Shown here piece by piece: positions 1,026 to 15,103 of a stretch of 27,211 bases of DNA. How positions within the stretch are numbered: position 1 is the first letter of the stretch; each line of letters opens with the position of its first letter. The position numbers and the translations under genes are program-made. The notes beneath the pieces were generated by a model that did not search any database, was not told the origin of the DNA, and was given only the letters and a program-made list of their open reading frames with translations. Origin of the DNA: a virus; the IMG/VR virus record IMGVR_UViG_3300030104_002009, positions 1 to 27,211 of that record; one strand, given 5' to 3'.

Positions 1026-1471
1026 TGAATAAAATATATAAGTTATTGCTGCTTATATCCTTTACAGGAACTAGCGTTTCTGCTGTTCCCGTGGTCCCCA
1101 CATTTTCTACGGGGACTCTTAACTCTCGGCAAGAAACTAAAACTGTAGTAGCTGAAACTATAACATCAGTTGATTATCGAAGTGGGTATGAATACGTGGT
1201 TTCTGGTCATAATATCGAACCACTAAATACAAATACTATTTCACCTAAAGCTGTATTAAGTACACCTCAAACAATTGATAACATTACATTCACATGGACA
1301 TCAGTAGATGTAACACCAGCAAACAAACCCGATTGGGGAATAAAAACGGCTGGCAACGCTTTCAGTTTTACAGAATCACTAGCCCAACCTGGACTCCAAA
1401 ATGTAACAACAATAAACCGAACCACAACAACAGACTCTATTGTGGAATCGGTATCTGTCTTTACTCAATAA
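1025..1471 (+). CDS. Secreted protein, second paralogue
   Basis: A 148-residue protein starting at a GTG that overlaps the previous stop by one base. Residues 1-20 form a signal peptide (K-Y-K, then LLLLI, ending SVSA). The mature chain is Thr/Ser/Val rich. YVVSGHNI in the middle and FSFTES near residue 114 match equivalent positions of the previous protein, so the two look like tandem duplicates that diverged strongly. From 1294 on, its coding sequence is overlapped in another frame by the next gene. Its own C-terminus is supported by the FSFTES match, which lies inside the overlap. Function unknown. Confidence 0.7.
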   Translation: MNKIYKLLLLISFTGTSVSAVPVVPTFSTGTLNSRQETKTVVAETITSVDYRSGYEYVVSGHNIEPLNTNTISPKAVLSTPQTIDNITFTWTSVDVTPANKPDWGIKTAGNAFSFTESLAQPGLQNVTTINRTTTTDSIVESVSVFTQ

Positions 1472-2154
1472 CATTTAGTCAACCAGTATTTGCAAACTCA
1501 ACAACTATAGCTTCTCCAAGTGCAACATCTCAAGGCAGTGTTATTAACCAAGGAATACAGGTTCAAAGTGGTAGCTTTATGTTTCAAGAAGTAGGTGATG
1601 GAATCCGTTGCAGTGGAACGACTCTTACTATTAATCCCTTCATTTCAAAAGTCAATACTTGGAAAGATCCGTTTGAACCAACGTACCTTGAAAATGTGTA
1701 TGACGATAGTACAGATGATGATGGTAATTTAATCAATCCTGGTGGAGTTTTATATACAAAACCAATCAGAACTGGACAAGCTGAAAATAACTTAAGTTTT
1801 AACTATGGCATTACAGCTACGATTGCCGTTCCATTAGATAGACGCATGACTAATAACTGCGTGGCTGCTATGAATAGCCGTGTTAAATATTTAGAACAAG
1901 CGTACAAAGCTAAGAAGTTAGATTATGCTTTGGGGCGTTTAAAAGTATGTGCTGAGCAACTAAAACTTGGGGTAATGTATTCAAAAGATAGCCCTAGCTA
2001 CGTTGTCTGTGAAGATGTCCGTTTGGTAAACAGACCTAATACCTTGCCAGATCACACGCATAGTATTGAGGTTATTGAATCTACTGTCGAGAAGCCCTCT
2101 GATCCCTTCGCCTTTGAGATAAACTCTTCACAAGAGGCTTCTTCCCCCGAATAG
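1294..2154 (+). CDS. Secreted or membrane-anchored protein with uncertain start
   Basis: The frame is open from an ATG at 1294 (286 residues). A hydrophobic segment at about 48-61 followed by QPVFA (residues 63-67) looks like a signal peptide, and a mature part follows with FMFQEVGDG, resembling the FxFxE motif of the two upstream genes. The C-terminal third has a Cys-containing helical region (NNCVAAMNSR, RLKVCAEQLKLG, YVVCEDVR) of a kind I associate with cyanophage proteins of unknown role. The true start is unclear: 1294 gives an implausibly long n-region, a TTG at 1333 is possible, and no ATG, GTG or TTG lies immediately before the hydrophobic segment. A frameshift from the previous gene is an alternative. 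It ends 74 nt inside the convergent minus-strand gene. Confidence 0.6.
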   Translation: MDISRCNTSKQTRLGNKNGWQRFQFYRITSPTWTPKCNNNKPNHNNRLYCGIGICLYSITFSQPVFANSTTIASPSATSQGSVINQGIQVQSGSFMFQEVGDGIRCSGTTLTINPFISKVNTWKDPFEPTYLENVYDDSTDDDGNLINPGGVLYTKPIRTGQAENNLSFNYGITATIAVPLDRRMTNNCVAAMNSRVKYLEQAYKAKKLDYALGRLKVCAEQLKLGVMYSKDSPSYVVCEDVRLVNRPNTLPDHTHSIEVIESTVEKPSDPFAFEINSSQEASSPE

Positions 2155-2905
2155 CTAGCAATTTTTTAGTCAATTTTTTACTAAAACTTTTGACCTTTCC
2201 TTTGAGCTGCTTCTGAAAGAATTTGGCTAGGGGCTGTCCTACTAAAGTCACACCAACAACAGATGAAATTGCAATAACTGACGTGTTAATTATTACGGTC
2301 GGTTCTGGACTGTAGTTTCCAGCTATATCAACCGCACTAAGACCTTCCCAAACAGTTTCACATTTACCTGTAAGTTCATCTCTTTTATATCCTTTTACAA
2401 GTGCTAAGCCTCCTTTGCCCATGCTTCCTATAGGGCTGTTTTGCATTTGATTAACAGACGGGCATGGAAGTATATCTGCAATAAACTGTCCATCAACATC
2501 TGGAATTTCAAACTCTTGTTGCCCTACATCGGTATCTCCCTTCTCGTCATTTTTGCTATCCTCTTTTTCCACTTCCTTTCTCTTATTCCCTTTTGAATTA
2601 ATTTTGGGAAGAGGTGGAACTATTTCTGGCTCTTCTGCTTTTACAGGTCCAACAGCAGATAATCCGTCCCAGTCAACAGCCATGCTTTCAAGTGTTGGTA
2701 CGTTTCCGTCGCATACATAGAAATTTCCAGCAGGATCTGTAGTAACTAAATTCTTATTTTTTAACGTCCTAGCCCTTACACAGCCAGGCATTTGAATAAC
2801 TGGAAAACCGATATTGCTAGGTATTTGTGGATTTGATGTGCGGATTATTGTTGTATCAATTGAAGCGTCAGGTATCTCCCTGATTCCAATTTCTTCTATT
2901 TCCAT
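2081..2905 (-). CDS. Two-repeat, basic-tailed membrane protein (unknown)
   Basis: A 274-residue protein of unknown family. It appears to contain two copies of a Cys-containing unit, each ending in W[D/E]GLSAV: residues about 41-85 (C42, C65, DWDGLSAV) and about 148-193 (C148, C182, VWEGLSAV). A low-complexity K/E/D linker at about 101-130 separates them. One membrane segment lies at about 203-225, followed by a very basic C-terminus (residues 231-274, many K and R). The start shares one base with the stop of the oxygenase gene upstream (TAATG). The last 74 nt overlap the end of a convergent plus-strand gene. A virion or host-envelope protein is possible; I cannot name a function. Confidence 0.65.
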   Translation of the reverse strand: MEIEEIGIREIPDASIDTTIIRTSNPQIPSNIGFPVIQMPGCVRARTLKNKNLVTTDPAGNFYVCDGNVPTLESMAVDWDGLSAVGPVKAEEPEIVPPLPKINSKGNKRKEVEKEDSKNDEKGDTDVGQQEFEIPDVDGQFIADILPCPSVNQMQNSPIGSMGKGGLALVKGYKRDELTGKCETVWEGLSAVDIAGNYSPEPTVIINTSVIAISSVVGVTLVGQPLAKFFQKQLKGKVKSFSKKLTKKLLAIRGKKPLVKSLSQRRRDQRASRQ

Positions 2906-3528
2906 TATTTTACATAAACATTAAAAGTATAAGTAATTCTGGCTTGGTCATGCTCGCATGATTGAGGAACAGAATGTGCTGCATGTGGCGGGAACAATAC
3001 CAATGTTCCTTCTTTTACATTTAATTGATTTGGATAAGTATGTGAATTAAGAAAGTGATTATTTAACTGTATTTTTTTTTCACAACCTATTGTCCATGCT
3101 CCAATTTCATATTCTGCTGGATTTACAAAGTTAGCAGGAAAATCTTTATTCTCATCAAATTGAAGATAATAAACACCACAAACAATTGCACCAGGATGAG
3201 CATGTTGCTCTTGATGCATACTTGAAGTGTGAATGTTTACCCAGGAAAAAAAATCTAGATCTAATCTTTTTTCTTCATTAGCTATAAAAGATATATATTC
3301 ATTAATTTTACTTTTTACTTGAGCATCTATAACATTCATGATTTTTTCTGCATGAAACATAGTCCATGTATTATCAGCAATAGCCCATTTAGCTTTTTGA
3401 TTAGGGTTCTTTCTTTTTTCTTCTAACAATAACGGTACATATTTAGCTTTATATTCTTGATGCCTTTCAACATCAAAAGTCATTATAGGAGTGGGGAAAA
3501 GTAAATGAATAATTCCATTTGTATTCAT
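2905..3528 (-). CDS. Putative 2OG-Fe(II) oxygenase (TIGR02466/PF13759-like)
   Basis: A predicted Fe(II)- and 2-oxoglutarate-dependent dioxygenase of 207 residues; the family's substrate is unknown. The cupin core is visible: VNIHTSSMHQEQHAHPGA then GVYYLQ (residues 98-123), with H109/H111 as likely metal ligands, then GTLVLFPPHAAHSVP (174-188) with H185, and R197 in RITYTFN as the candidate 2OG-binding Arg. The opening LFPTPIMTF is typical of this family. I chose the start at 3528 because it forms an ATGA overlap with the gene upstream; an in-frame ATG four codons earlier is the alternative. It is one of five oxygenase-like genes in this block. The fold is convincing and the substrate is unknown. 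Confidence 0.8.
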   Translation of the reverse strand: MNTNGIIHLLFPTPIMTFDVERHQEYKAKYVPLLLEEKRKNPNQKAKWAIADNTWTMFHAEKIMNVIDAQVKSKINEYISFIANEEKRLDLDFFSWVNIHTSSMHQEQHAHPGAIVCGVYYLQFDENKDFPANFVNPAEYEIGAWTIGCEKKIQLNNHFLNSHTYPNQLNVKEGTLVLFPPHAAHSVPQSCEHDQARITYTFNVYVK

Positions 3529-4088
3529 AATCCACCCCAAATAACAATTGAAGCTCTTTCTCCTCTTGTGATTTGACTAACTCGATGAATAAATAAAGAA
3601 GGAAAAACAATCATCATACCTTGCTCTTCTTCTATTTCTATATCGCCGTCAGGCATTTTAAAACCAAGTTTTCCATTATCGTAATCACGGGAATCTGAAA
3701 GAATTAAAGAGGCTGATAAATCTCTATTTACTTCTGAAAATTGATCTAACGAGTCAAAATGCCAATAGAAAAAATCTTTTTCTGTATAAAATGTAAATTG
3801 GGGATCTTCTATAAAACGAATAGGTTGCTTATAAAATTCAAAAGCAACATCTTTATATGTTTTTAATATTTTTTCTCGGAATAGTTGTCTTAATGCAAAA
3901 GAATTATGTTCTTTATTTGGTTTATATACACTCGATTTAGATGATCTTGTTTGTTTATTAACTACACCATTTTTTTGATCCGTAGCATTAACCTCAGAAT
4001 CATACATCTTTTGTTTTCCCTTGTGAATAAGATAATCACATTCTTCTTTAGTTACAACATTTTTAACTATAAAATAATCAGCAATCAT
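3525..4088 (-). CDS. Prolyl-4-hydroxylase-like 2OG-Fe(II) oxygenase
   Basis: A 187-residue predicted dioxygenase of the PHD/P4H type (PiuC-like architecture). The complete facial triad is visible: H110-x-D112 in YWHFDSLD and H168 in FPSLFIHRV, with R178 in GERASIVIW as the 2OG carboxylate-binding residue. The N-terminal part (FIVKNVVTKEECDYLI) is the helix that usually precedes the core in this family. Known relatives hydroxylate proline or other side chains; the substrate here is unknown. I placed the start at 4088, giving an 11-nt overlap with the upstream gene; an in-frame ATG at 4118 would add ten residues and a longer overlap. The stop overlaps the next start as ATGA. Confidence 0.83.
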   Translation of the reverse strand: MIADYFIVKNVVTKEECDYLIHKGKQKMYDSEVNATDQKNGVVNKQTRSSKSSVYKPNKEHNSFALRQLFREKILKTYKDVAFEFYKQPIRFIEDPQFTFYTEKDFFYWHFDSLDQFSEVNRDLSASLILSDSRDYDNGKLGFKMPDGDIEIEEEQGMMIVFPSLFIHRVSQITRGERASIVIWGGL

Positions 4089-4635
4089 TCCAGTCTCCTG
4101 CAATTGAACTAGCAGCATTACCTACTTGTTTTCTAGCTTGTCCAAAGAAGATACCTGCGAGGACGGGGCCAACTATCGGTACGCTCGCTATGGCAGGTGT
4201 AACTTGAACACTTGCGCTATCCGCAATTAGTTGTCCATTGCTGCGACCTTGAGCCATCTTTTCTATACATTCAATTTGCTTATCTGTAAGTTTTCCGTTT
4301 GAACCTTGAGGATAAATTGCAAACTGAGCAACAGATTCTTTATGCGTATGTCTAGTCTTTACACCGCCAGAAAACGTAGGAGATTCTGTCGATTCATACT
4401 GAAGCATCGTTTTAGGGTCATGTTGGCGTGAAGAAAAGCTCCACTCCTCCCCACCATCAGATTTTGTTTCACTCCTTATTTGAAGGCTGCTATAAGGAGT
4501 ACTTGAAAGCTTGGCAATATCAGGGATGCCAGAATCTTTACGAGCCAAAAGATTAAGACTCATAAAATTCGTAGCAATCAAACCACCGCCTAAGACAAGA
4601 GAAGTTAGGCCGTTAAATGACTTGAATTGAATCAT
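4078..4635 (-). CDS. Small membrane protein with two hydrophobic segments (unknown)
   Basis: 185 residues, not recognised. A hydrophobic N-terminal segment (about 8-30) may be an uncleaved signal anchor. A polar, Ser/Thr/Gln-rich middle (about 40-125) follows, then a second hydrophobic glycine/proline segment at about 148-165 (IASVPIVGPVLAGIFFGQ). The start codon overlaps the stop of the 41-residue gene upstream as ATGA, so it belongs to the translationally coupled small-gene cassette 5139-4078. A role in the envelope (lysis, exclusion or virion assembly) is possible but not shown. Its end overlaps the start of the prolyl-hydroxylase-like gene. Confidence 0.65.
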   Translation of the reverse strand: MIQFKSFNGLTSLVLGGGLIATNFMSLNLLARKDSGIPDIAKLSSTPYSSLQIRSETKSDGGEEWSFSSRQHDPKTMLQYESTESPTFSGGVKTRHTHKESVAQFAIYPQGSNGKLTDKQIECIEKMAQGRSNGQLIADSASVQVTPAIASVPIVGPVLAGIFFGQARKQVGNAASSIAGDWNDC

Positions 4636-4757
4636 CTTTTAGGAATGGGTTCGTTAACAATTTCACGACCGCCATAACTAAAAACCTTTGGAAACAATAG
4701 ATCCAAATCTTTTTCAAGATCTAGCTTTTGTTGAGCAGTTAATAGATTCTTTTTCAT
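4632..4757 (-). CDS. 41-residue ORF coupled by ATGA at both ends
   Basis: A very short gene supported by its position. Its ATG (4757-4755) overlaps the stop of the upstream gene as ATGA, and its TGA (4634-4632) overlaps the next start, again as ATGA. The product begins MKKNLLTAQQKLDLEKDLDL and is a charged amphipathic helix for about 20 residues, followed by LFPKVFSYGG and a polar tail ending IPKR. There is no membrane segment or known motif. Without it there would be a gap of 118 nt in an otherwise gap-free cassette. Function unknown. Confidence 0.6.
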   Translation of the reverse strand: MKKNLLTAQQKLDLEKDLDLLFPKVFSYGGREIVNEPIPKR

Positions 4758-4960
4758 TTCCCAAAAGGAAGCACAGAGCCAGTTGATGATGGAACGCTTG
4801 GTATTGATGGCATAGCTTCTCCAACTAAAGCAGGAAGTTCTTTTTTAACGCCATCTAATACAGCATCAAAGATTTTTGATCTAAAAAGAAACGCTCCACC
4901 TAACCCTGCTACTCCCAAAATAAAAGCAGCAAAGTTAATCCAAGTGATAATTTTCATCAT
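4754..4960 (-). CDS. 68-residue single-TM protein (unknown)
   Basis: A small membrane protein: MMKIITW, then a hydrophobic segment of about 20 residues (INFAAFILGVAGLGGAFLF), then a short helix with K and E, and a Pro/Ser-rich C-terminus (PSIPSVPSSTG). I chose the start at 4960 because it forms an ATGA overlap with the stop of the coiled-coil gene upstream; an ATG nine bases earlier is also in frame. A single N-terminal TM with a short soluble tail fits a pinholin-like, antiholin-like or virion-anchored protein, but nothing identifies it. The topology is visible and the role is not. Confidence 0.65.
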   Translation of the reverse strand: MMKIITWINFAAFILGVAGLGGAFLFRSKIFDAVLDGVKKELPALVGEAMPSIPSVPSSTGSVLPFGK

Positions 4961-5139
4961 GCAGGACAAGCCTCACCGCCATCTTCAGTAGTTGCCTTAT
5001 CAGCTTCTCTAGCATCATTAATAATTTGACCTTGTAACTCTTGGATCTTTACAGCAAGTGGTTGAAGTTCAGCTTTGTGTCTTGCCACGGCTGCATTGTA
5101 TTCTTCAACAACAGCATCAAGTTCAGAGATTGCAGACAT
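4957..5139 (-). CDS. 60-residue coiled-coil protein (unknown)
   Basis: The first gene of the small cassette. Residues 5-45 show heptad-like spacing of L, V, I and A with charged flanks (ELDAVVEEYNAAV, LAVKIQELQGQI), predicting a coiled coil; the acidic C-terminus ends GGEACPA with one Cys. There is no membrane segment. Its stop overlaps the next start as ATGA. Upstream are 52 nt without a gene before the oxygenase at 5192. The pairing of a coiled-coil protein and a single-TM protein could form a complex; this is inference. Confidence 0.65.
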   Translation of the reverse strand: MSAISELDAVVEEYNAAVARHKAELQPLAVKIQELQGQIINDAREADKATTEDGGEACPA

Positions 5140-5191
5140 AAATAAAGTGTATATGCCTTAAAATTATAAGCCAATTTTGCCTTTTAGCTAA
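5140..5191 (-). promoter_or_regulatory. 52-nt intergenic gap with a weak promoter-like pair
   Basis: One of the few non-coding gaps in the accessory block. Read on the minus strand it contains TTGGCT, 17 nt, then TACACT, a weak sigma-70-like pair about 8 nt before the start of the 60-residue gene. AT-rich DNA produces such pairs by chance. It is listed because the small-gene cassette begins here and no better candidate exists. No clear terminator hairpin is seen. Confidence 0.2.
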
Positions 5192-5896
5192 TCAGACATT
5201 ATCTCTAGTTAATGGATACCTCCCAAAATAATTAGATTCTTCTTCAAAAATACTCTTTACAGTTAAAGACCTAATAAAAACTCTTAGGGTATATCTAGGA
5301 TCGATACCATAATTTGTTTGGCTATGAAACATTCCCGACGGAAACAACAACATTCTGTTGGGCTTAGATTGAACTTTTATTGTTTCTGTAAACAATTCTC
5401 GATTTTCTTTTACTCGTTTTTCAAACCCTTCACCTATTTCACCTGTTTTAAAAAAATGTCTAGCTTGTTTTAAATAAGTAACATCTGCGTTCCATGAACT
5501 CCAATTTTTTTTCTCATAAAAAGTAGTTCCTGTATTAAGACAAGAAGTTGAATTTAAGTAGCAAACCCCTGTTAGTTTCCATCCTGCTTCGTCATCCCTA
5601 TGTACTAGACCTTCATTTAAAATAGATTCAACAGGAGCCATTGGCGTTATAAGTTGAAAATCTAAGTTATATTCTCCTTTCCATTTATGTAGAGTAGTAT
5701 CCCAAAAAAGATTTACAATTTTATTGATAGTAAAATTTGTTAAGACAGGATTAAAATTATTAATATAATCTTTTGATGTTACTCCTGGATAATTAGCTTC
5801 TCCAAATCTTTCATATTCTTGACTTTTAGCTAAATCTAAAACTTCTTGAACATTTGGAAAGAAATCATCAATAACAGTAACTGGAAATAAGTGCAT
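5192..5896 (-). CDS. 2OG-Fe(II) oxygenase-like protein (DUF6445-type)
   Basis: A predicted Fe(II)/2OG dioxygenase of 234 residues. The opening (MHLFPVTVIDDFFPN) is typical of SM-20/DUF6445-like proteins. Ligand candidates are H99-x-D101 (VHRDDEAGW) and H191 (FPSGMFHSQ), with R205 (RYTLRVFI) for 2OG. The motif NTGTTFYE between the two His regions also occurs, as TAGTSFYK, in the gene at 6512, so these two are probably distant paralogues. The next gene upstream stops two bases before the start. The substrate is unknown; the location beside the fibre module suggests a late role. Confidence 0.75.
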   Translation of the reverse strand: MHLFPVTVIDDFFPNVQEVLDLAKSQEYERFGEANYPGVTSKDYINNFNPVLTNFTINKIVNLFWDTTLHKWKGEYNLDFQLITPMAPVESILNEGLVHRDDEAGWKLTGVCYLNSTSCLNTGTTFYEKKNWSSWNADVTYLKQARHFFKTGEIGEGFEKRVKENRELFTETIKVQSKPNRMLLFPSGMFHSQTNYGIDPRYTLRVFIRSLTVKSIFEEESNYFGRYPLTRDNV

Positions 5897-5897
5897 C

Positions 5898-6455
5898 TTA
5901 TTGCCTCATGAAATCAATAATCAAGTTGTATCTAGGAACATCACCTTTATAAATAACTTCATGTGGCATCCTATTATTTATTTCAATCAAATCACCTTTA
6001 TCCATAGCAATTTTATTACCTGCAATTAAAAAATCCATTTTTTCATAGTCACCATCTAAACACCAATGAAGTCTATGTGCCTCTCCAAAATAAGGATGAG
6101 TATCTGAATGTGAACCTATCTTTGAATTAGGCGGCATCATTACAATCATTGCTGTAGTAACTCTAAATTGACGAGCAGTAGGGTTACTAAAATAAAAATA
6201 GGTAAAACATTCAACTATTGGATAACATAATTTTGATAATTCATCTGTATATTTAAACGTATCTAATTTAATACTAGGGTAATCGCTACGATCTGCAAAC
6301 ACAGCAGCAACACATTTTGTTTGCTCATGGAAAGGAAATCTAGTTTGTCTATCTGTAAACTCATCCCAAGCTTCTACAGGTAACGAGGAAATAAAATTCA
6401 TTATTTCAGTTGAATCGTAATTCCCCAGTTTTTTGCTCCACTCAATAATGTCCAT
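5898..6455 (-). CDS. Aspartyl/asparaginyl beta-hydroxylase-like oxygenase
   Basis: A 185-residue predicted 2OG oxygenase of the AspH (PF05118-like) type. The AspH signature is recognisable: HSDTHPYFGEAHRLHWCL (116-133), with H130 corresponding to the first AspH metal His, then KGDLIEINNRMPHEVIYKG (153-171) with H165 as the second, and R175 in PRYNLIIDF for 2OG. H116-x-D118 is an alternative ligand pair. AspH relatives hydroxylate Asp/Asn side chains of proteins or free amino-acid derivatives; the target here is unknown. A 56-nt AT-rich gap containing one arm of an inverted repeat lies upstream. Confidence 0.75.
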   Translation of the reverse strand: MDIIEWSKKLGNYDSTEIMNFISSLPVEAWDEFTDRQTRFPFHEQTKCVAAVFADRSDYPSIKLDTFKYTDELSKLCYPIVECFTYFYFSNPTARQFRVTTAMIVMMPPNSKIGSHSDTHPYFGEAHRLHWCLDGDYEKMDFLIAGNKIAMDKGDLIEINNRMPHEVIYKGDVPRYNLIIDFMRQ

Positions 6456-6480
6456 ATAAATCAGAGAATAAAATGTAAAA

Positions 6481-6523
6481 ACCTTTTTAAGTCTTGCTTA
6501 GGACTTTAATTTTATAAAAAGGT
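6481..6523. repeat. 9-bp inverted repeat with nested hairpin
   Basis: ACCTTTTTA at 6481-6489 and TAAAAAGGT at 6515-6523 are perfect inverted repeats. Nested between them is AGTC...GACT with an 8-nt loop. The right arm overlaps the last codons of the gene at 6512. Read on the minus strand the structure is followed by TTTT, so it may be a weak terminator or an RNA-processing or stability element between two oxygenase genes. AT-rich arms make chance occurrence possible. Confidence 0.35.
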
Positions 6524-7177
6524 TACTTCTGTAAATCGTGTTTTTTCTTTATAACGATTATCAATAATTTTTTGACCATGAGGCCATTGGCCAGGGAACG
6601 CTACTAGAGAATTGAATTTTGATAGAATACATAATTGTTCTTCAAATAAATAATCATTAATCCAAGGTTGTTCATGTTCATGATTTAATTGTTTTAAAGA
6701 ATCTTTTTGTTTAGCCTTGTAAAAGCTGGTTCCAGCAGTCATATTTTCCTGTGGATTTAAAAAAATTAAAACATTTAATTGAAAATCAGTATGACATATC
6801 CAATTAAGCTTTTGACCTGGATAATCTTTTAACAATCTAAATTGATTAATATGAATTTGAGGTATGATTTTAGATAAATCTAAATTATAAAAATCACATA
6901 TTTTTGCCATTAATAATCTTCTATGTTTATCATTACAATACAAATCTGGATGTAAAGTATGTTGACCATCAATAAAAGTTTGACCATTTAAGCTGTTTTT
7001 ACTATGTGGCTTATGGGAAACAATAGGAACTCTCTGTAAATAATCAAATAATTTCAAAGGATTTTTATATATATTATCTATAAATAAAATATAAGAATTG
7101 TTATAAGGTTGTATTGTAACTTCCCAATGACTATTAAATTTAAAATCTATATCTGTATAAAAATCAACATCTATCAT
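6512..7177 (-). CDS. 2OG-Fe(II) oxygenase-like protein, distant paralogue of the one at 5192
   Basis: A 221-residue predicted double-stranded beta-helix oxygenase. Candidate residues are H129-x-D131 (ICHTDFQLN) and H200 (FPGQWPHGQK), with R214 (KTRFTEVTF) for 2OG. TAGTSFYK parallels GTTFYE of the 5192 gene, and the spacing HxD, GT[T/S]FY, FP, H, R is shared. The N-terminal 90 residues are unrelated by eye. The sulfotransferase gene stops immediately before this start (7178), so the two are contiguous. It is very AT-rich, like the two genes upstream, and so differs from the fibre genes in composition. The substrate is unknown. Confidence 0.68.
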   Translation of the reverse strand: MIDVDFYTDIDFKFNSHWEVTIQPYNNSYILFIDNIYKNPLKLFDYLQRVPIVSHKPHSKNSLNGQTFIDGQHTLHPDLYCNDKHRRLLMAKICDFYNLDLSKIIPQIHINQFRLLKDYPGQKLNWICHTDFQLNVLIFLNPQENMTAGTSFYKAKQKDSLKQLNHEHEQPWINDYLFEEQLCILSKFNSLVAFPGQWPHGQKIIDNRYKEKTRFTEVTFL

Positions 7178-7972
7178 TTATGTCCATTCAGTCCAAAATT
7201 CATCTAAATCAAACTGATTAGAAAAAAGATTTAATTTTTCTAAATCTCTTTTTCCTTCTCTAACTTTTGATTCTATTTCATGAGTGGCAGCATACATTCT
7301 GTAAGAGCTATCATTTTGTTTTATTACATTTTTTATATTATTAAAATCATAATTATGAAAATTTTTTATTTCTAAAAAGTTAGAAATTCTACTTAATTGT
7401 TCTTGAGGATTATTACATAATTTATGATAATCAATGAATAACATTTGATTTCTTTTGTTTTGAATAAGAGATGCTTCCTTTATTGCTATATAAGCTTTCC
7501 CAATTGATCCATCATAAGTAAGCATTGACTTTGCTCTATTTAAAACAGTAAAACCTTTGTCTTCTGTAATTTCCTCCCATTGAGTGTAAGTTTCTGGTTC
7601 TTTCTTATAGAGCCTTTCAAATGAAGCTGCACATTCTAAAGGATTGCGAACTGTGCATAATATTTTAATTGGATAATCAACAATTTTATTTACTAAGTCA
7701 ATGTAAAATAACCATTCCCTATGTTTGTCTATGTTAATAGATATATTTTGATCATGATAAGAATTAAAAACTGATTTTAAAATAGGAATTAATTGATGTT
7801 GATTGTTATTAAATTTATTTCTAACGGAATCAGCCCAAAAAGTCCGAATATTATTTAACAACGGTAAAAGAGTAGAAGCCTCTGATACTGCGATATTTGG
7901 ATTTTGATTTAATAAACCACATAATAATGTTGAACCTGATCTTGGTAGCCCTGCAAGTAACACTATTTGCAT
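7178..7972 (-). CDS. Sulfotransferase (PAPS-dependent family)
   Basis: A 264-residue protein with the two PAPS-binding signatures of the sulfotransferase superfamily. The 5'-phosphosulfate loop is LLAGLPRSGSTLL (5-17), and the 3'-phosphate motif is ILCTVRNPLECAASF (104-118), with R109 and S117 as expected ligands. Such enzymes move sulfate from PAPS to hydroxyl or amino groups of sugars, proteins or small molecules; the acceptor cannot be read from sequence. The protein is the usual length for a single-domain bacterial or phage member. It sits between a methyltransferase gene (5-nt gap) and an oxygenase gene (0-nt gap), suggesting a shared pathway. Confidence 0.85.
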   Translation of the reverse strand: MQIVLLAGLPRSGSTLLCGLLNQNPNIAVSEASTLLPLLNNIRTFWADSVRNKFNNNQHQLIPILKSVFNSYHDQNISINIDKHREWLFYIDLVNKIVDYPIKILCTVRNPLECAASFERLYKKEPETYTQWEEITEDKGFTVLNRAKSMLTYDGSIGKAYIAIKEASLIQNKRNQMLFIDYHKLCNNPQEQLSRISNFLEIKNFHNYDFNNIKNVIKQNDSSYRMYAATHEIESKVREGKRDLEKLNLFSNQFDLDEFWTEWT

Positions 7973-7977
7973 AAAAG

Positions 7978-8550
7978 CTATCTTTTCGCTATGAAATAAG
8001 AACGGCCTACTAAATCATCATCTAAATCAATAATTGTATTAAATCCTGAGAAATTAAATTTATTTTTCACCTGAGCAGTCGTAATAATTTCCCCAGTATC
8101 GGCTGAACAAAATTCTTTAGCACAACTAAACAGAACACAATCATTGGCTAATTCACAAGCTTTTTCAATCTGAAGGAAAGGTGATTTATAAGTTAAAGTA
8201 TTAAAAAGGGCTACAACATCATACATACTTATAGATAAAGAACTATCTACTATGTCTCCAACTTCAAAAGAATATTTGTCATCCGTAAAATAATTTGCCA
8301 TAACAACTTTTGCATTGTCTATATAATTTTTTTCAATATCAACACCATGAACCTTGCTTGCTCCTTTATCTAAAAACCAAGAACAAAAGCGACCATCAGC
8401 ACAACCTAAATCTAAAACTGTTTTTTCATTTACATAAGAGGCAAAACCCTCCATTGCGGCAGTTTTCTCATTTAAAACATCTGCCTCAGAAGTTATACTT
8501 TTGTCAATGTCTTGATTAACAAAAAGATCTCTGTTGTCAAAATAAGCCAT
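7978..8550 (-). CDS. SAM-dependent class I methyltransferase
   Basis: 190 residues with the Rossmann-type motif I VLDLGCADGRF (45-55) and the acidic end of strand 2 at D71 (VHGVDIEKNYI), which bind S-adenosylmethionine. VEVGDI-like FEVGDI (about 95-100) and YDVVALFNTL (110-119) match motifs II/III and IV. The domain layout resembles generic small-molecule or protein methyltransferases rather than DNA methylases: no DPPY/NPPY or PC motif is seen. The start overlaps the upstream stop by one base (TAATG). The substrate is unknown; the neighbouring sulfotransferase and oxygenases suggest joint modification of one target. Confidence 0.83.
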   Translation of the reverse strand: MAYFDNRDLFVNQDIDKSITSEADVLNEKTAAMEGFASYVNEKTVLDLGCADGRFCSWFLDKGASKVHGVDIEKNYIDNAKVVMANYFTDDKYSFEVGDIVDSSLSISMYDVVALFNTLTYKSPFLQIEKACELANDCVLFSCAKEFCSADTGEIITTAQVKNKFNFSGFNTIIDLDDDLVGRSYFIAKR

Positions 8551-9191
8551 TAGGTTCGTTGTTTAAACTGGTAAGCAATTAATTCGTCAATATCAATTAT
8601 AGAATTAATATGCTTATATTCTTCTAAAAACGAAATTTCCAAATTTTTAATACATATTGCAGCCGTTCTTAATAAAGCTGTGCAATCTTTTGCATCAAGA
8701 AGAAACGTATTTCCATCAGCATCAAACCATTCGAAATTTTCAGGATATTCTCCTAACGGAATTAAAGAAGCTAATAATGATAAATGTGCAATATTACGAT
8801 AACGCATATCAAATCTTCTCCCATTCCATTTTATCCCATAAGACAATACATAATCTTTATGAATAAACCAATCATCAATTTTAGCTTTTAATACTTGTTG
8901 AAAACCATGATATTCATAATGATAAGTTTCAACTACTTCTGCCTTTCCATCATTTACAAATTCATATCTTGGCCCATTTCCTATAATTGAATAAGGTCTA
9001 TTAGGATATTTAGGCTTGCTTTCTTTTAGTCGTAGACATCCAATAGTAAATAAAACTTGATCTTCAGTTTCTGGAGTTACAATATATTCTCTAGGTTTGC
9101 CATTTTTATCTTTACCAAAAGTAAAAGTAACAGAATCTCCTTCATACACACCTCGAAACTGACCATTTTTATATCCAATCCATTTAGGCAT
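8550..9191 (-). CDS. DUF4376-like protein, possible fibre assembly factor
   Basis: 213 residues. The C-terminal region (about 150-210: NFEWFDADGNTFLLDAKDC, then a helical stretch with ICIKNLEISFLEEY and IDIDELIAYQF) resembles DUF4376, a domain found in tail-fibre assembly or fibre-associated proteins of many phages. The N-terminal half (MPKWIGYKNGQFRGVYEGD) is polar and Tyr-rich. It follows the glycine-rich adhesin gene by 6 nt, a usual position for a fibre chaperone, and a GGAG lies about 10 nt before the ATG. The assignment rests on a remembered domain pattern and context and is moderate at best. Confidence 0.5.
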   Translation of the reverse strand: MPKWIGYKNGQFRGVYEGDSVTFTFGKDKNGKPREYIVTPETEDQVLFTIGCLRLKESKPKYPNRPYSIIGNGPRYEFVNDGKAEVVETYHYEYHGFQQVLKAKIDDWFIHKDYVLSYGIKWNGRRFDMRYRNIAHLSLLASLIPLGEYPENFEWFDADGNTFLLDAKDCTALLRTAAICIKNLEISFLEEYKHINSIIDIDELIAYQFKQRT

Positions 9192-9197
9192 AATTAA

Positions 9198-10007
9198 TTA
9201 ACTCCATGAAACTGTAGCTTGAGCAGAATTATTATTTGCATAATTTACAGTGAAGCTATCAAAATCACCAGAACTACCACCATTACTTCCGACACTTCCT
9301 CCTAGATGTCCACCAGCAGTACCACCATTTTGTGCGGCTGCACCATAACCACCTTGACTTGACCCACCGCCGCCAGCCCCGCCACCGTAATAACAGGAGG
9401 GTGTATTAGATCCGTTACCGCCATTCCTGCCACTATTTGTCTGGTCAAAAGTTCGACCTCCTCCTGTAGATCTACTATCTCCTGAACTAGGTGCTGTTTC
9501 GTATAAACCATTTCTTTTTCGACCTGGATGATTACTTGCTAGTCCACCAGTTCCACCACCTCCTGCCGCTACCATTGATCCACCTGTCCAAGTAGCGTAA
9601 CTAGCACCACCGCCAGGATGACCTCTGTAGGGTGTTGGGCCTGTTGTTGATCCACCATTGCCACCATTTCCTGCGTAATCAGTGGCTTGACTTGTTTTAC
9701 CGTAACTTGCAGTAGTAGGCGTGTAAATATATAAACTTGCCGTTGGTATACCTCCGTTTTTTATTAATCGTGTGCCACCAGAATAAGGGCCACCACCAGC
9801 ACCATTAGCACCATTTCCTTGTCCTCCAGCACCTCTAAGATCTAATCCAACTGTTGTATATGCGCCATCAGGATCAAAAGGCTGATAACCTTGACCAGCG
9901 TAACCCATTGGATGGGTGTAAGAACCAGCAGGTTCTGGGCCTGAAGAACCTGCAAACAATCCAAAGCCCATCGCACTTGAACTTCCTCTAAATTCAATAT
10001 TAGGCAT
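9198..10007 (-). CDS. Glycine-rich adhesin-like tail-tip protein
   Basis: 269 residues, very rich in Gly, Ser, Asn and Thr, with runs such as GGAGGGGSSQGG and NGGNGS. There is no collagen Gly-x-x periodicity; the irregular GG and GGG blocks recall the polyglycine-II-helix adhesins at the distal fibres of some T-even phages (gp38-like), a comparison by composition only. The N-terminal 60 residues (MPNIEFRGSSSAMGFGLFAG, then PxGYAGQGYQPFDPDG) are distinct and the C-terminus (DSFTVNYANNNSAQATVSW) looks like a beta domain. It lies directly after the second fibre gene (6-nt gap), so it is a good candidate for the receptor-binding tip. Confidence 0.6.
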   Translation of the reverse strand: MPNIEFRGSSSAMGFGLFAGSSGPEPAGSYTHPMGYAGQGYQPFDPDGAYTTVGLDLRGAGGQGNGANGAGGGPYSGGTRLIKNGGIPTASLYIYTPTTASYGKTSQATDYAGNGGNGGSTTGPTPYRGHPGGGASYATWTGGSMVAAGGGGTGGLASNHPGRKRNGLYETAPSSGDSRSTGGGRTFDQTNSGRNGGNGSNTPSCYYGGGAGGGGSSQGGYGAAAQNGGTAGGHLGGSVGSNGGSSGDFDSFTVNYANNNSAQATVSWS

Positions 10008-10013
10008 GATGAA

Positions 10014-11273
10014 TTAAGCGAATTGGGTTTGAGCAGCTAATACTGTATAAGTAGCACTAGCTGTTTTAATAATAGTAAAAGTATAAACATCAATACTGTT
10101 TGCATTACCAGAAGAAGGTGCAGAGCCACCTTGCCATTCAGTAGTCACCTGTGAAGTAGTACCATCTATTTCAACAGAGGTGCAATAGTAAGCAGTACCA
10201 CCTTGTTGTACCAAAAAAGCAACTGTTAATGACATGTCACTAGCTGGTAAAATGTTATTCATAGTAGTACCACTAGAACCTCGGAAATTTAAAACGAAAT
10301 TTCCTGTAGCGTTACTTTTACTAAATCGAACAGATTGGTTTGTAGTGTCATAATTTATTGTGCCAGTTGCCGCCGTACTAGTTGTTACACAAACTTCTGC
10401 TGTGTTTTTAAATACAGCAGATAATTTATTGGAAGCACCATTAAATGTTTGTGTTCCAGTAAAAGTACGATTTGCTGATAAGTCAACTGATCTATCAACC
10501 CAACTTAAAGCTCCTGAACCATCTGTACTTAAAACATAACCACTAGTCCCGTCGGCGGCTGGGTAAGTATAAGTAATATTAGAGGAGACAGTTCCAGGAG
10601 CTTTAAAAGCAAGATAATTACTTGAATCTGAATCAGCTAAACGAAGTTCACTTGCTGAATTAAGAGTGACATGACTACTTGATGTAAGGCCAGCCAAAGT
10701 TCCTAAGGCTGTAATATTCGATTGGGTTGCTCCAGTTACGGTTGCAGCAGTTCCAGTTACATTTCCAGTTACATTTCCAGTTAAGTCTCCAGTTACATCT
10801 CCAGTTAAATTTGCAACAAACGCATTAGCTGACTTATCCCATAACCCATTTGAAGATGCCCCTGTAAAGGTCACATCCCCATTGAAGGTTGTTGCTCCTA
10901 AAGTTCCAACTGAAGTCAAAGAACTAGCTGTAACTCCACTTGCAAGAGTATTTCCAGTTAAGCTTGCCGCTGCAACATTTACAGCAGCAGACCATGAAAG
11001 CGTTCCAGACCCATCCGTAGTAAGCTGTTCTCCAGCATTACCATCGGCTCCAGGCAAGGTATATAAAAGATTACTTGAGACAGATGAAGGAGCTTGAAAT
11101 CCTACATAATTACTAGAATCAGCATCTGCAAAACGCACATCAGTCTGTGCATTTAAAACAATATTTCCAGTAAAAGTAGCTCCTGTCGATTGAACTAAAT
11201 TTGCAAGACTAAGTGTTTGATCCCCAGACGAATCATAAATAAAGGTGTCAGCCTTAATTGTCCCATAAGCCAT
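10014..11273 (-). CDS. Tail fibre protein (short fibre)
   Basis: 419 residues. The start MAYGTIKADTFIYDSSG is the type seen at the N-termini of cyanophage fibres. Two copies of a module of about 57 residues follow (about 41-98 and 204-260: [D/E][V/L]R[F/L]AD, SSNY, AP, VSSN, DGSG, LSW). They are separated by TG[D/N][V/L] tetrapeptide repeats (about 157-175). The C-terminal 150 residues (from about 268) are a different beta-rich domain without repeats, probably a trimerisation or receptor-binding head. It shares one base with the stop of the long fibre upstream (TAATG). Fibre identity is strong; the domain role is inferred. Confidence 0.8.
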   Translation of the reverse strand: MAYGTIKADTFIYDSSGDQTLSLANLVQSTGATFTGNIVLNAQTDVRFADADSSNYVGFQAPSSVSSNLLYTLPGADGNAGEQLTTDGSGTLSWSAAVNVAAASLTGNTLASGVTASSLTSVGTLGATTFNGDVTFTGASSNGLWDKSANAFVANLTGDVTGDLTGNVTGNVTGTAATVTGATQSNITALGTLAGLTSSSHVTLNSASELRLADSDSSNYLAFKAPGTVSSNITYTYPAADGTSGYVLSTDGSGALSWVDRSVDLSANRTFTGTQTFNGASNKLSAVFKNTAEVCVTTSTAATGTINYDTTNQSVRFSKSNATGNFVLNFRGSSGTTMNNILPASDMSLTVAFLVQQGGTAYYCTSVEIDGTTSQVTTEWQGGSAPSSGNANSIDVYTFTIIKTASATYTVLAAQTQFA

Positions 11274-14200
11274 TAGAGAATCACCCAGCGAGCGTTTGCA
11301 GGAATTGTAACCGTTACTCCTGAGTTTATAGCTAAATCCCCAACTGAGCTAGCATTTTTTGCGGATCCATTACCTATTGTGTAGTTAGTCGTAATTGTTT
11401 GAGAGTTTTCAACAAATATTTCATCAGAACCACCTCCAGTAGCACCGCCACCTGAACCACCAATAGCACCCCATCCAGTATTTCCGTATCCTTCAAATTG
11501 ATTAAGTGTTGAGTTATATCTAAATGCTCCTGTGTTAGCACCAGCAGGTCTCTCTCCAGTTGTTCCGACAGGCATGTCAACCATGCCAGTTCCTGTAAAC
11601 AATAAATTACCTGCAATAGTCAAAGAAGTAAGAGTACCTAAACTTGTAAGACTTGATCCTGTTATTCCACTAGCAAGAGTCGTTCCTGTAAGAGTTGATC
11701 CTGCTGCTGCAACTGTTATATTTGCCGATCCATCAAAGCTTGTTCCGTTAATTGTTCTTGCCGTTGCTAAAGCTGTAGCCGTCGAAGCATTTCCAGTTAA
11801 AGCACCAGTAAAACCAGTACTAGTCAACATTCCTGTTGAAGGATTATAAGTAAGTCCTGTATCTGTTTCTGCCCCTTGAGATCCTGTTGCTCCATCAACA
11901 AACAATGGATAAACAGTTTCATCTGTTGAGTTATTAGCAGTAACGGTAACTTCAGTTGATAAAGCTGCTGTTCCTGAAGTGTCTTGATTACCAGCAGCAT
12001 TAACACCAGCAAGATTTATGTTTGCTGTGCCGTCAAAACTAACTCCTCCAATTGTTCTAGCTGTTGCGAGTGCGGTAGCTGTATCTGCATTACCTGTAAC
12101 ATTACCTGTAACGTTTCCACTAAATGTTCCTGTAATTGTTCCACCGTTAGTTATATCGTTTGTTCCTAAATTGATGTCACCCGTCATGGTTCCACCAGCC
12201 AACGGGAGCTTTGTAGGGTCTGTAGCGTTATCAGAAGCCCAACCTAAATTCCCTGATCCATCAGACTTTAAGAATTGAGTTCCAGTTGAATCTGTTGCTG
12301 GAAGAATCCAAGTAATATCAGAAGTTACAGAATCAGGAGCTTTTAAAGCTAGATAATTTGCACCGTTTGAGTCTGCTTCTGTAAAACGAACTTCTTTTGC
12401 ATTATCAACAATCAGATTGCCTGTCATTGTGCCGCCAGCTTTAGGCAAGGCAGCATTGGCTGTTGTAGCAGCAGCATCAGCAGCATCTTTCGCAACTTTC
12501 ACCGCCGCAGGTGTGGCAGCCGTAGTTGTTGAACTAGAAGCGGCACTATCTGTTAATTGAACAACACCAACAACAGATGTGGTTCCAGCAACAATCTTTG
12601 ATCCAGCAATTGCAGCACTAGCATTTATATCAGCGTTAACAATTGCACCAGCAGTAATAGAAGTTAAACCTGCGTTATCTATTCCTATATCACCTGTAAC
12701 TGTTACGGCTGTTGCCTTATCACTTGCATTTCCTACAAGGATTTTCGCAGCAGTTAAATCTTCTAATTTTGTAAAAGCAATAGCAGCATTAGCAGCTAAA
12801 TTTGTATTTATTAAACTTCCGTCAACCATATCCTTGGTGACAGTATTTGTGTCTCCAGTTGTAATTACTGTTCCCGTTATATTTGGCAGAGTTATTACTT
12901 TGTCCGAAGTCGTTGGATCAGCAACTGTTAATCTTGTCTCAAATGCGTCAACAGTCGATCCTTCAAATACAAAGCTTCCAGTATTACCAATTAAAAGCTC
13001 ACCTGTAACAGTACCACCTGCAACTGCTAACTTTTCTGTTTCAAGTTCTTGCATCGCATCTTGCACGTTTGTCGAACTTAATTGACCGTAAGGTGTGAAA
13101 GTGATATTGCTTGCAACTTGACCTGCAACTGTCTGTGAAAGATCGACTTCATTCCATGACGAACCAGCACTATTTGTTACTCCTAAAATGTAATCAGGAG
13201 GAGCAAAAGCAATTACTGGAGCTGGAGCACTTGGCGTTCCAGAAGTTGAAACAACGACATACACGCCATCCGTTGTAGAAGATGGACTTGGAAGATTAGA
13301 ACCAACTGCTAAACCAGCCGCAATACCAGCCGAAGTCGTAGCCACCATCTGGCTTGTACTTGCATTAAAGGTTCCACCAAAAACAAGACTTCCTTTTGTC
13401 AGCGTGGTGATGGCTTGCCAAGCGTTTCCATCCCAGATAAACGCATCTTCAGAAACAGTATCAAACAGAATTTGGCCTGAGAACTGGGCTGTTGGATAAC
13501 CACTTTGGGCTATAGATTGGAAGACTGCTGTAGAAGTATTGCTTAGTTTTGTGCCATCAATAGAATCGTTTGCAATTCTCGCAGCATCAAAACTTCCACT
13601 TGTTATTTTGCTTGCAGCAAGATCGGGAACCAAAGCAGCCGTTAATGCTGCACCTGCTGTTGCTACACCTTTATTATTAACAGTAACCGATTGATAAGTT
13701 CCAGCACTTACTCCACTCGTTGAAGTCGTTAAATTTCCTGAGCCATCAACAGTCAAACCTCCTCCAGATGTGATTTGAACTGCACCTTTTGCACTTGTCG
13801 TTGCAACAGGAAGGTCAGTAGCTACTAAGGCGGTAGCAGCCGTAATCATGCCTTGTGCATTAAAAGTTATACCGCTAACTGTTGCTCCAGTAACACTATT
13901 AGTAAGAGATAATGCACCAGCTCCACTAACACTTAAACCCGTTCCAACAGAGACACCACCAACAGCAGATGTAGTAGCAATAGGTAAATCGCTGGCAGCA
14001 AGAGCTACCGTTCCAGTAATTAATCCTTGTGCGTTGTAACTAATTCCAGATCTAGTTGCTGCTGTAACTGTGTTATTTATCCCAAGATTTCCTGAAGCTA
14101 CATTTAACGACCTATCGATATTTCCAGTTGCTAATTTTGCTGCTGTAATTGTTCCATCAGTAATTTTGGCATTAACAACAGCGTTTGCAGCTATTTTTGC

Positions 14201-15103
14201 TTCAGTAACAGCATTGCTAGCTATCGCTCCAGCATCTACAGAATTATTTGCTAAAGCCGCTGCATCAACAGCATTTGCTGCAAGCTTCGCACTTGTTACA
14301 GCATCATCAGCAAGTTTTACTGTCGTAACAGCACCATCTGCAATAGTTCCAGCTTCAATTGTTCCTGAGAGCTTGGCAGCAGTTACAGCTCCATCTGCTA
14401 TTTGTGTTGTCCCAATAGCTCCGTTTGCTATTTGTGTTGCTGTAATCGTGTTATTAACAATATTTCCAGCAGCAATGGTTGTGCTTGCAATTTTGGCTCC
14501 AGTTATCGCAGCATTGGCAACAGCAGCAGTATCAACAGCGTTATCTGCGAGTTCTGTAGCAGTAACAGAGTTTGTTGCTAATTGAGTAGCAGTAATTCCT
14601 CCAGATGCAATTTTGGCCCCAGGTATATCTCCGTCACTAAGACTTAACTTTGCATAAGTAACATTGGCATCTGTAATCTTTGCAGTTGTTACAGCGTTTG
14701 CAGCAATAGCAGCAGTATCTACAGCATCATCAGCTAATTCAGAAGCAGTTATCGCATTAGCGGCTATCTGTGTTGCAGTAACAGTATCGTTAACTAACTT
14801 CGCTCCAGTTATCGTTGCGTCTGTTATCTGAGTTGCAGTTATCGCTCCGTTAGCAATCTTGGCAGTTGTGACCGCTAAATTTTGAATTGTTGCTGTCGCT
14901 ACGGCATCAGTAGCAAAAGGCGTTGCAACCTTGGCAGCAGGAATATCTCCCGAATCAATAAGAGCCGCACCAGCAGCTATTAAATCTTTTACAGTTACCT
15001 TTTTTGTCTCAGTTGCACTTAAATCTGCAAGTGCAAGCACGTCAGTCGCTTGAATACCAGCTTCACCAAGGGCAGGTAAAGCACTTATCTGAAGATCAGC
15101 CAT
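11273..15103 (-). CDS. Long repetitive tail fibre
   Basis: 1276 residues. Residues 1-55 (MADLQISALPALGEAGIQAT, TVKDLIAAGAALID) form an attachment-like domain. About 60-330 is an array of about 10-residue repeats of the type [A]-V/I-T-x-x-[K/Q]-[L/I]-A-[D/N], predicted to form a long beta-solenoid or triple-stranded shaft. Then come GxxVSGxxxNAQGxITA units (about 335-460), a knob region (SLVFGGTFNASTSQ to WNEVDLSQT, about 585-685), another copy of the AP/VTSD/DGSG/W module, TGNVTG repeats, and the C-terminal EIFVENSQTITTNYTIGNG...VTVTIPANARWVIL, a fibre ending I know from cyanophages. The length and modular make-up fit a side or central tail fibre. It comes 31 nt after the tube-like gene at 15135. 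Confidence 0.85.
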   Translation of the reverse strand: MADLQISALPALGEAGIQATDVLALADLSATETKKVTVKDLIAAGAALIDSGDIPAAKVATPFATDAVATATIQNLAVTTAKIANGAITATQITDATITGAKLVNDTVTATQIAANAITASELADDAVDTAAIAANAVTTAKITDANVTYAKLSLSDGDIPGAKIASGGITATQLATNSVTATELADNAVDTAAVANAAITGAKIASTTIAAGNIVNNTITATQIANGAIGTTQIADGAVTAAKLSGTIEAGTIADGAVTTVKLADDAVTSAKLAANAVDAAALANNSVDAGAIASNAVTEAKIAANAVVNAKITDGTITAAKLATGNIDRSLNVASGNLGINNTVTAATRSGISYNAQGLITGTVALAASDLPIATTSAVGGVSVGTGLSVSGAGALSLTNSVTGATVSGITFNAQGMITAATALVATDLPVATTSAKGAVQITSGGGLTVDGSGNLTTSTSGVSAGTYQSVTVNNKGVATAGAALTAALVPDLAASKITSGSFDAARIANDSIDGTKLSNTSTAVFQSIAQSGYPTAQFSGQILFDTVSEDAFIWDGNAWQAITTLTKGSLVFGGTFNASTSQMVATTSAGIAAGLAVGSNLPSPSSTTDGVYVVVSTSGTPSAPAPVIAFAPPDYILGVTNSAGSSWNEVDLSQTVAGQVASNITFTPYGQLSSTNVQDAMQELETEKLAVAGGTVTGELLIGNTGSFVFEGSTVDAFETRLTVADPTTSDKVITLPNITGTVITTGDTNTVTKDMVDGSLINTNLAANAAIAFTKLEDLTAAKILVGNASDKATAVTVTGDIGIDNAGLTSITAGAIVNADINASAAIAGSKIVAGTTSVVGVVQLTDSAASSSTTTAATPAAVKVAKDAADAAATTANAALPKAGGTMTGNLIVDNAKEVRFTEADSNGANYLALKAPDSVTSDITWILPATDSTGTQFLKSDGSGNLGWASDNATDPTKLPLAGGTMTGDINLGTNDITNGGTITGTFSGNVTGNVTGNADTATALATARTIGGVSFDGTANINLAGVNAAGNQDTSGTAALSTEVTVTANNSTDETVYPLFVDGATGSQGAETDTGLTYNPSTGMLTSTGFTGALTGNASTATALATARTINGTSFDGSANITVAAAGSTLTGTTLASGITGSSLTSLGTLTSLTIAGNLLFTGTGMVDMPVGTTGERPAGANTGAFRYNSTLNQFEGYGNTGWGAIGGSGGGATGGGSDEIFVENSQTITTNYTIGNGSAKNASSVGDLAINSGVTVTIPANARWVIL
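12225..12410 (-). repeat. Third copy of the AP/DGSG/W fibre module
   Basis: Encodes EVRFTEADSNGANYLALKAP, a D-I-T-W segment and KSDGSGNLGWAS, matching the two modules in the neighbouring short fibre (about 10494-10664 and 10980-11153). All three share the order [E/D]xR[F/L], NY, AP, VxS[N/D]xxxxxP, DGSGxLxW. It may be an intramolecular folding or trimerisation unit reused between fibres, as in other phages with modular fibres. Confidence 0.65.
14110..14930 (-). repeat. Array of ~30-nt coding repeats (fibre shaft)
   Basis: Within the long fibre, about 25 degenerate units of about ten codons follow each other, reading AxTxTQIA, AVTTAKIAD, ELADDAVDTAAIA and similar. The DNA copies have drifted, but short identical stretches recur, offering sites for slippage or recombination that would lengthen or shorten the fibre shaft in steps. 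The boundaries are approximate. Confidence 0.7.

Follow-up and report, generated by a model that had tools for sequence, protein, structure and literature searches.

An exchangeable cassette of oxygenase, sulfotransferase and methyltransferase genes linked to a glycine-rich tail adhesin in an uncultured virus

Up to nine copies of Fe(II)- and 2-oxoglutarate (2OG)-dependent oxygenases are found in the phage S-SZBM1 (PMC9146016), and for the many 2OG oxygenases of marine phages the usual guess is a part in DNA repair or metabolism. No role is known for phage sulfotransferases (PMC10580990). A virus-coded hydroxylase that is thought to act on virus proteins is the prolyl 4-hydroxylase (P4H) of chlorella virus PBCV-1, as cited in PMC9301287, and the glycine-rich fiber domains of cyanophages are described, in the Pam3 report (PMC9608196), as receptor-binding tips handled by a chaperone. 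The uncultured virus contig IMGVR_UViG_3300030104_002009 (27,211 bases; “the window” denotes this whole stretch) encodes five Fe(II)/2OG oxygenases, with a sulfotransferase of the type that uses 3′-phosphoadenosine 5′-phosphosulfate (PAPS) and a class-I S-adenosylmethionine (SAM) methyltransferase alongside. The parts belong to known families; the enzyme cassette that they form is exchangeable and is tied to Gly-rich tail adhesins. No description of this enzyme combination or of its adhesin link was found in the open literature, which omits most subscription journals.

The window's oxygenases share families, fold motifs and occurrence as several copies per genome with those of cyanophages (PHROG 61, 81 and 1644; PMC9146016). 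The latter, however, are described as scattered or near DNA-repair genes, whereas the five described here flank fiber genes and vary with adhesin type. PBCV-1 differs as a eukaryotic virus with a single enzyme; the window belongs to a tailed phage and has a cassette of several enzymes. As with gp24/gp25 of Pam3 (PMC9608196) and gp38 of S16, a Gly-rich distal protein is followed in the same order by a small chaperone-like gene, but no modifying enzymes are reported behind the Pam3 and S16 modules in the portions of the accounts at hand. S-SKS1 (Llyrvirus) offers another likeness, since its sulfotransferase lies between Kelch repeat fibers with P4H-like oxygenases a few genes on. That sulfotransferase is 32% identical to the one in the window, and no DUF6445, AspH-like or methyltransferase partner was seen at the S-SKS1 locus.

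All seven enzyme open reading frames (ORFs) are present at 2905–8550 on the minus strand. These ORFs, with their Pfam and PHROG matches, bear out the gene set named in a first-pass annotation made from the letters alone, and the metal-binding residues of the facial triad, which it had wished to see checked, and the 2OG-binding residues are intact in all five oxygenases as judged from alignments of relatives. That annotation had also placed the enzymes in a single island directly behind the fiber and adhesin genes. Its placement holds for part of the stretch only: the enzymes occupy two insertion slots, not one contiguous island, because three backbone genes at 4078–5139 (P605, c71 and c60), kept throughout the phage lineage, split them. 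Slot 1 contains an accessory fiber, the Gly-rich adhesin and the chaperone-like gene, and behind these the methyltransferase, the sulfotransferase and the DUF6445-like, AspH-like and DUF6445 oxygenases. The gene directly before the enzymes is the chaperone-like/tail-fiber gene, itself preceded by the adhesin. Slot 2, between P605 (phrog_605) and P570 (phrog_570), holds the PF13759 and P4H-like oxygenases.

In relatives gathered via P605 and via the tail protein, the backbone order is fixed: tail protein, three small tail genes, main fiber, slot 1, c60, c71, P605, slot 2, P570. Both slots are hypervariable across some 80 contigs of the lineage, the majority of which lack oxygenases; most have nothing in slot 2, many have a single adhesin or nothing in slot 1, and the enzyme set differs freely between contigs. 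Unrelated genes also enter the slots, among them a redoxin (L035) and, in slot 2 of L077 (3327–3698), an outer-membrane-like β barrel (PF24653). The GC content of the enzyme stretch is 26–31%, as against 37–44% across most of the structural region. The enzyme genes are packed with zero or few spacer bases, and the stop codon of the chaperone-like gene and the methyltransferase start codon overlap (TAATG); this packing suggests late expression coupled with the fiber genes. Promoter and terminator signals in the enzyme stretch showed no excess over shuffled sequence, and phage records held no DNA-level match to the window.

The link to adhesins was scored per contig, with an oxygenase counted in either slot and an accessory adhesin taken as Gly-rich when Gly made up 30% or more of any 60-residue stretch. 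The whole of slot 1 is visible in 53 dereplicated contigs; among these, such an adhesin occurs in all 10 oxygenase carriers and in 6 of the 43 others (p = 4e-7); thresholds of 35% and 40% give p = 1e-5 and p = 1e-4. When only contigs with any accessory adhesin are compared, the counts are 11/11 and 8/30 (p = 2e-5). On the P605 tree, which includes the window, the oxygenase trait switches nine times or more, and about five of six independent pairs on that tree run in the same direction, with none opposing (median p = 0.06; six independent pairs, from 58 rows, can hardly give a lower value). In L028 (5771–8943) and L247 (6001–9168), two DUF6445 oxygenases, a small fiber protein, a Gly-rich adhesin and a chaperone-like gene are inverted as one block, which lies between the main fiber and c60 on the strand opposite to the backbone. 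Recombination sites were considered as the cause of the inversion and rejected, as no convincing flanking inverted repeat was found. The co-occurrence, the tree pairs and the inverted block together make the adhesin, or the receptor used by the adhesin, the most likely purpose of the enzymes.

The sulfotransferase bears on what that purpose might be. Its best PDB match in a profile search is the tyrosylprotein sulfotransferase (TPST) TPST1 (3.5e-13), and the top 13 Foldseek PDB matches of its AlphaFold2 model (predicted local distance difference test score, pLDDT, 91.7) are all TPSTs; heparan-sulfate (carbohydrate) and small-molecule sulfotransferases follow. Because of this resemblance to protein-tyrosine sulfotransferases a protein substrate is plausible, and because identity to TPSTs is only 18–20% a protein acceptor is favored but not proven. 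TPST1 and TPST2 are closest in both sequence and fold, and the window protein has the PAPS loop PRSGST and a Glu31 that aligns with the TPST GEE. The 5′-phosphosulfate-binding loop is conserved through the phage sulfotransferase family. Unlike the TPSTs, the phage protein has no visible membrane anchor, and Glu31 is not kept in phage relatives, being found solely in the window protein among seven aligned rows. A search for the function of the methyltransferase returned generic matches only and no relative.

Sulfotransferases and oxygenases commonly occur together. Within the lineage, all three contigs with a sulfotransferase (the window, L032 and L091) carry oxygenases, compared with 11 of 88 others (p = 0.003). 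The gene row in L032 and L284 reads Gly-rich adhesin, Phage_tail_APC chaperone, AspH-like oxygenase and a different sulfotransferase; that in L091 reads Gly-rich adhesin, a 145-residue gene, a tetratricopeptide-repeat (TPR) sulfotransferase and two oxygenases. The first 12 sulfotransferase relatives outside the lineage (L002–L013) all have PF13759 oxygenases within five genes, and often a P4H too, at loci behind repeat fibers and adjoining a P-loop kinase and a HIGH nucleotidyltransferase. The kinase and nucleotidyltransferase beside the sulfotransferase in L003–L013 might supply PAPS. The L005 kinase barely passes the PF01583 (adenosine 5′-phosphosulfate kinase) cut-off, and AAA_33 scores higher.

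In a wider set of 80 sulfotransferase loci, mostly from S-SKS1-like phages, the gene lies among large, mostly Kelch-like fibers; a P4H is near it in 46 of 56 loci of the S-SKS1-like cluster and in 14 of 14 of the next cluster. Within 10 kb of a sulfotransferase, PF13640/PF13759 matches are denser than in the rest of the same records, 8.1-fold when S-SCSM1 is left out and 3.5-fold when it is included. The pairing is common, not universal: no more than 4 of 13 sulfotransferase clusters show it in a majority of their members, and the sulfotransferase of S-SCSM1 lies beside recombination genes, so a general rule was rejected. S-SCSM1 (NC_070962.1) has about 19 sites with 2OG oxygenase matches in one genome. 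Multi-oxygenase arrays also occur directly behind a Gly-rich adhesin in L280 (3440–7656) and L281 (1364–5023), with five to six or more enzymes of several types. Both contigs look podophage-like, and L280 has six oxygenases.

On balance we lean toward an exchangeable cassette whose enzymes hydroxylate, sulfate and perhaps methylate the adhesin at the distal end of the tail in an uncultured marine siphophage. Late in infection, the enzymes would be expressed from a single closely packed gene row shared with the Gly-rich (gp38/gp24-like) adhesin and its chaperone-like partner. The oxygenases would hydroxylate adhesin or fiber side chains during folding, the TPST-like sulfotransferase would sulfate tyrosine or a newly made hydroxyl, and the methyltransferase would cap a group last. 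In this way the receptor-binding loops may be tuned in negative charge, hydrogen bonding or stability. It may be speculated that receptor contact is thus diversified with the fiber gene unchanged, a notion backed by the known role of the Gly-rich tip of Pam3 (PMC9608196). That many marine phages practice modular hydroxylation and sulfation, with or without methylation, of Gly-rich or Kelch adhesins in the infected cell, and so gain a tip chemistry beyond the genetic code, is a more tentative proposal.

A fiber-modifying island was also the suggestion of the first-pass annotation. It gains from adhesin co-occurrence, from the TPST-like sulfotransferase and from fiber linkage, since oxygenases and sulfotransferases near fibers do recur in unrelated phages. 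The scatter of oxygenase relatives that the annotation thought would speak against it is nevertheless found in part: close families also lie away from fibers in the cyanomyoviruses P-TIM40, S-SCSM1 and S-WAM1, and the families are therefore not fiber-specific, though this cassette is. Further points weigh on the same side. The 30% Gly threshold was chosen after looking at the data, though 35% and 40% still give small p values. The six contigs that have Gly-rich adhesins without oxygenases imply that modification is not required for the adhesin fold. No residue is clearly enriched in the adhesins of oxygenase carriers (proline, 4.4 versus 3.2%, p = 0.08). Nine of the 13 sulfotransferase clusters lack a nearby oxygenase in most members, and with one record per lineage the enrichment of 2OG genes around sulfotransferases is only 1.9-fold (p = 0.05). 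Finally, the co-occurrence would also fit enzymes that alter the host receptor of that adhesin type.

Receptor-matched modification of the host envelope is the strongest alternative. The enzymes would act on O-antigen, capsule, S-layer or an outer-membrane protein, blocking superinfection or keeping progeny from sticking to debris, and since adhesin and enzymes would both have to fit one receptor, the same co-variation would result. Capsule decoration has been proposed for cyanophage clusters with 2OG enzymes (PMC7824862). The sulfotransferase locus of S-SRM01 includes an epimerase and a glycosyltransferase, and that of AG-345-O18 has starts resembling a nucleotidyltransferase, a sugar kinase and an epimerase, families inferred from sequence. 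In contrast, the cassette of the window contains no glycosyltransferase, sugar-nucleotide or membrane enzyme. Carbohydrate sulfotransferases do appear among the fold matches, but only after 13 protein-tyrosine sulfotransferases, and the late structural gene row with its stop-start overlap, like the inverted block of adhesin and chaperone-like genes in relatives, sits better with a virion substrate. We regard envelope modification as rather unlikely.

It is less probable still that the genes form a small biosynthetic cluster for a modified amino acid, peptide or small molecule (a signal, toxin or metabolite) that lies beside the fibers merely because the late slot is tolerant. The slots do accept unrelated genes, as the redoxin and β barrel attest; amino-acid hydroxylases, GriE for one, are among the fold matches of DUF6445, and a secondary-metabolite cluster with 2OG enzymes has been suggested for S-SSM6a (PMC7824862). 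Yet no scaffold-making enzyme (nonribosomal peptide synthetase, carbamoyltransferase, ligase or precursor peptide) is seen, the enzymes track adhesin type, which is unexpected of a metabolic cluster, and their set differs freely between contigs, as that of a fixed pathway would not. Generic host-takeover or nucleic-acid roles unrelated to fibers are very improbable: although cyanomyovirus 2OG genes are scattered, also beside uvsX and clamp-loader genes (about 19 sites in S-SCSM1), and a DNA-repair role near uvsX has been proposed (cited in PMC9146016), the window enzymes match AspH, PKHD/PiuC, DUF6445 and PF13759 with no AlkB- or TET/JBP-type match, no DNA gene adjoins them, and within the lineage they vary together with the adhesin.

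Co-variation with a Gly-rich adhesin offers a concrete, testable substrate for the sulfotransferases and oxygenases. If adhesin modification proves correct, marine phages carry receptor-binding proteins that are altered after translation, which would affect how host range is read from fiber sequences, and enzymes of protein sulfation and hydroxylation that work in bacteria would be added to those known.

Table 1. Genes of the two slots and their borders in the window
Position	Strand	Feature	Match or context
2081..2905	-	P570 backbone gene (phrog_570), outer border of slot 2	PHROG 1.3e-32
2905..3540	-	2OG oxygenase, PF13759 type (PHROG 81), slot 2	Pfam 1.3e-13, PHROG 5.5e-24
3525..4118	-	2OG oxygenase, PF13640/PKHD-PiuC-like, prolyl-hydroxylase-like (PHROG 61), slot 2	Pfam 7e-11, PHROG 1e-28
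4078..4635	-	P605 backbone gene (phrog_605), separates slots	Kept across lineage, distantly in cyanomyoviruses
4754..4969	-	c71 backbone small membrane protein	Adjoins P605 in most relatives
4957..5139	-	c60 backbone small protein, inner border of slot 1	Conserved backbone position
5192..5896	-	2OG oxygenase, DUF6445 (PF20043), slot 1	Pfam 3e-14
5898..6455	-	2OG oxygenase, Asp/Asn β-hydroxylase-like (PF05118, Asp_Arg_Hydrox), slot 1	Pfam 6e-9
6512..7177	-	2OG oxygenase, DUF6445-like/PHROG 1644, slot 1	PHROG 3.6e-33; Pfam DUF6445 weak, 0.014
7178..7972	-	PAPS-dependent sulfotransferase, slot 1	Sulfotransfer_1 9e-17, Sulfotransfer_3 1e-14
7978..8550	-	Class-I SAM methyltransferase, slot 1	Pfam Methyltransf_31 4e-11
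8550..9191	-	Tail-fiber assembly chaperone-like/fiber protein (DUF4376-like)	PHROG tail fiber 8e-5; PF14301 (DUF4376) 0.025, weak
9198..10007	-	Gly-rich tail adhesin, candidate substrate	Up to 40% Gly in 60 residues
10014..11273	-	Accessory tail-fiber protein	PHROG 5906 8e-22; virion structural protein 6e-4
11273..15103	-	Main tail-fiber protein, outer border of slot 1	Conserved position after t15135 in relatives

Four of the five oxygenases exceed their Pfam cut-offs, and the DUF6445-like protein is placed by PHROG and by fold, its AlphaFold2 model (pLDDT 69) matching GriE, OGFOD1, PHD2 and the mimivirus lysyl hydroxylase in Foldseek searches of the PDB. The HxD...H...R motif is invariant in the AspH and DUF6445 alignments: H99, D101, H191 and R201 in the DUF6445 protein, H129, D131, H200 and R214 in the DUF6445-like protein, and H116, D118, H165 and R175 in the AspH-like protein aligned with L032 and L212. 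It is present in at least 52 of 60 rows of the P4H-like family. The first motif of the PF13759 family is HxH, not HxD (HxH...H...R), and H113, H115, H189 and R201 are kept in at least 50 of 51 relatives; both of these families keep their motifs in at least 85% of 51–60 relatives.

The AspH-like protein scores 36.3 bits against a curated PF05118 cut-off of 22.6 and has no sequence match in the PDB. The P4H-like protein matches PiuC in the PDB (1e-8) and NCBIfam PRK05467 below its cut-off (1.6e-18); at 67 bits against a cut-off of 143 for the PiuC/YbiX equivalog, it is related without being an equivalog. This gene has an alternative start at a later ATG (MIADYF...). For the AspH-like and second DUF6445-like proteins, single-protein scans gave no close relative; profile scans found 3 and 39 loci, respectively. 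For the two proteins searched, identity to proteins of named phages is about 24–31%. Among the adjoining genes, the chaperone-like gene sits where relatives have Phage_tail_APC genes, and the position of the adhesin matches that of the Gly-rich adhesins (Gly_rich_2, PF21722) of L031, L035, L039 and L089; the Pfam Gly_rich_2 model itself gives no match to the window adhesin.

The virus is a marine siphophage with a probable cyanobacterial host. Such a host is likely because the tail genes resemble those of Synechococcus siphophages: the tail protein (1390 residues) is 28–32% identical over part of its length to proteins of S-CBS1, S-CBS3 and S-LBS1, and the tape measure is 38% identical to that of S-H1. 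A search of bacterial genomes with a core gene, made to name the host, gave no match. P605 is 77–95% identical in 80 contigs and 25–30% identical in T4-like cyanophages. The backbone module (w28, w528 and w1294 converging on P570, P605 and c71; window positions 28–2905 and 4078–5139) has the same convergent layout in the T4-like S-CAM4 and P-TIM40 (L160 and L161), where its genes are mostly annotated as hypothetical proteins, and it is possibly a gene set common to siphoviruses and cyanomyoviruses. Signal-peptide-like starts occur at 528 and 1025 in the window. The ORFs at 1025–1471 and 1294–2154 overlap by 178 nucleotides in different frames, which could be explained by a later start or a frameshift, and a similar overlap is seen in S-CAM4.

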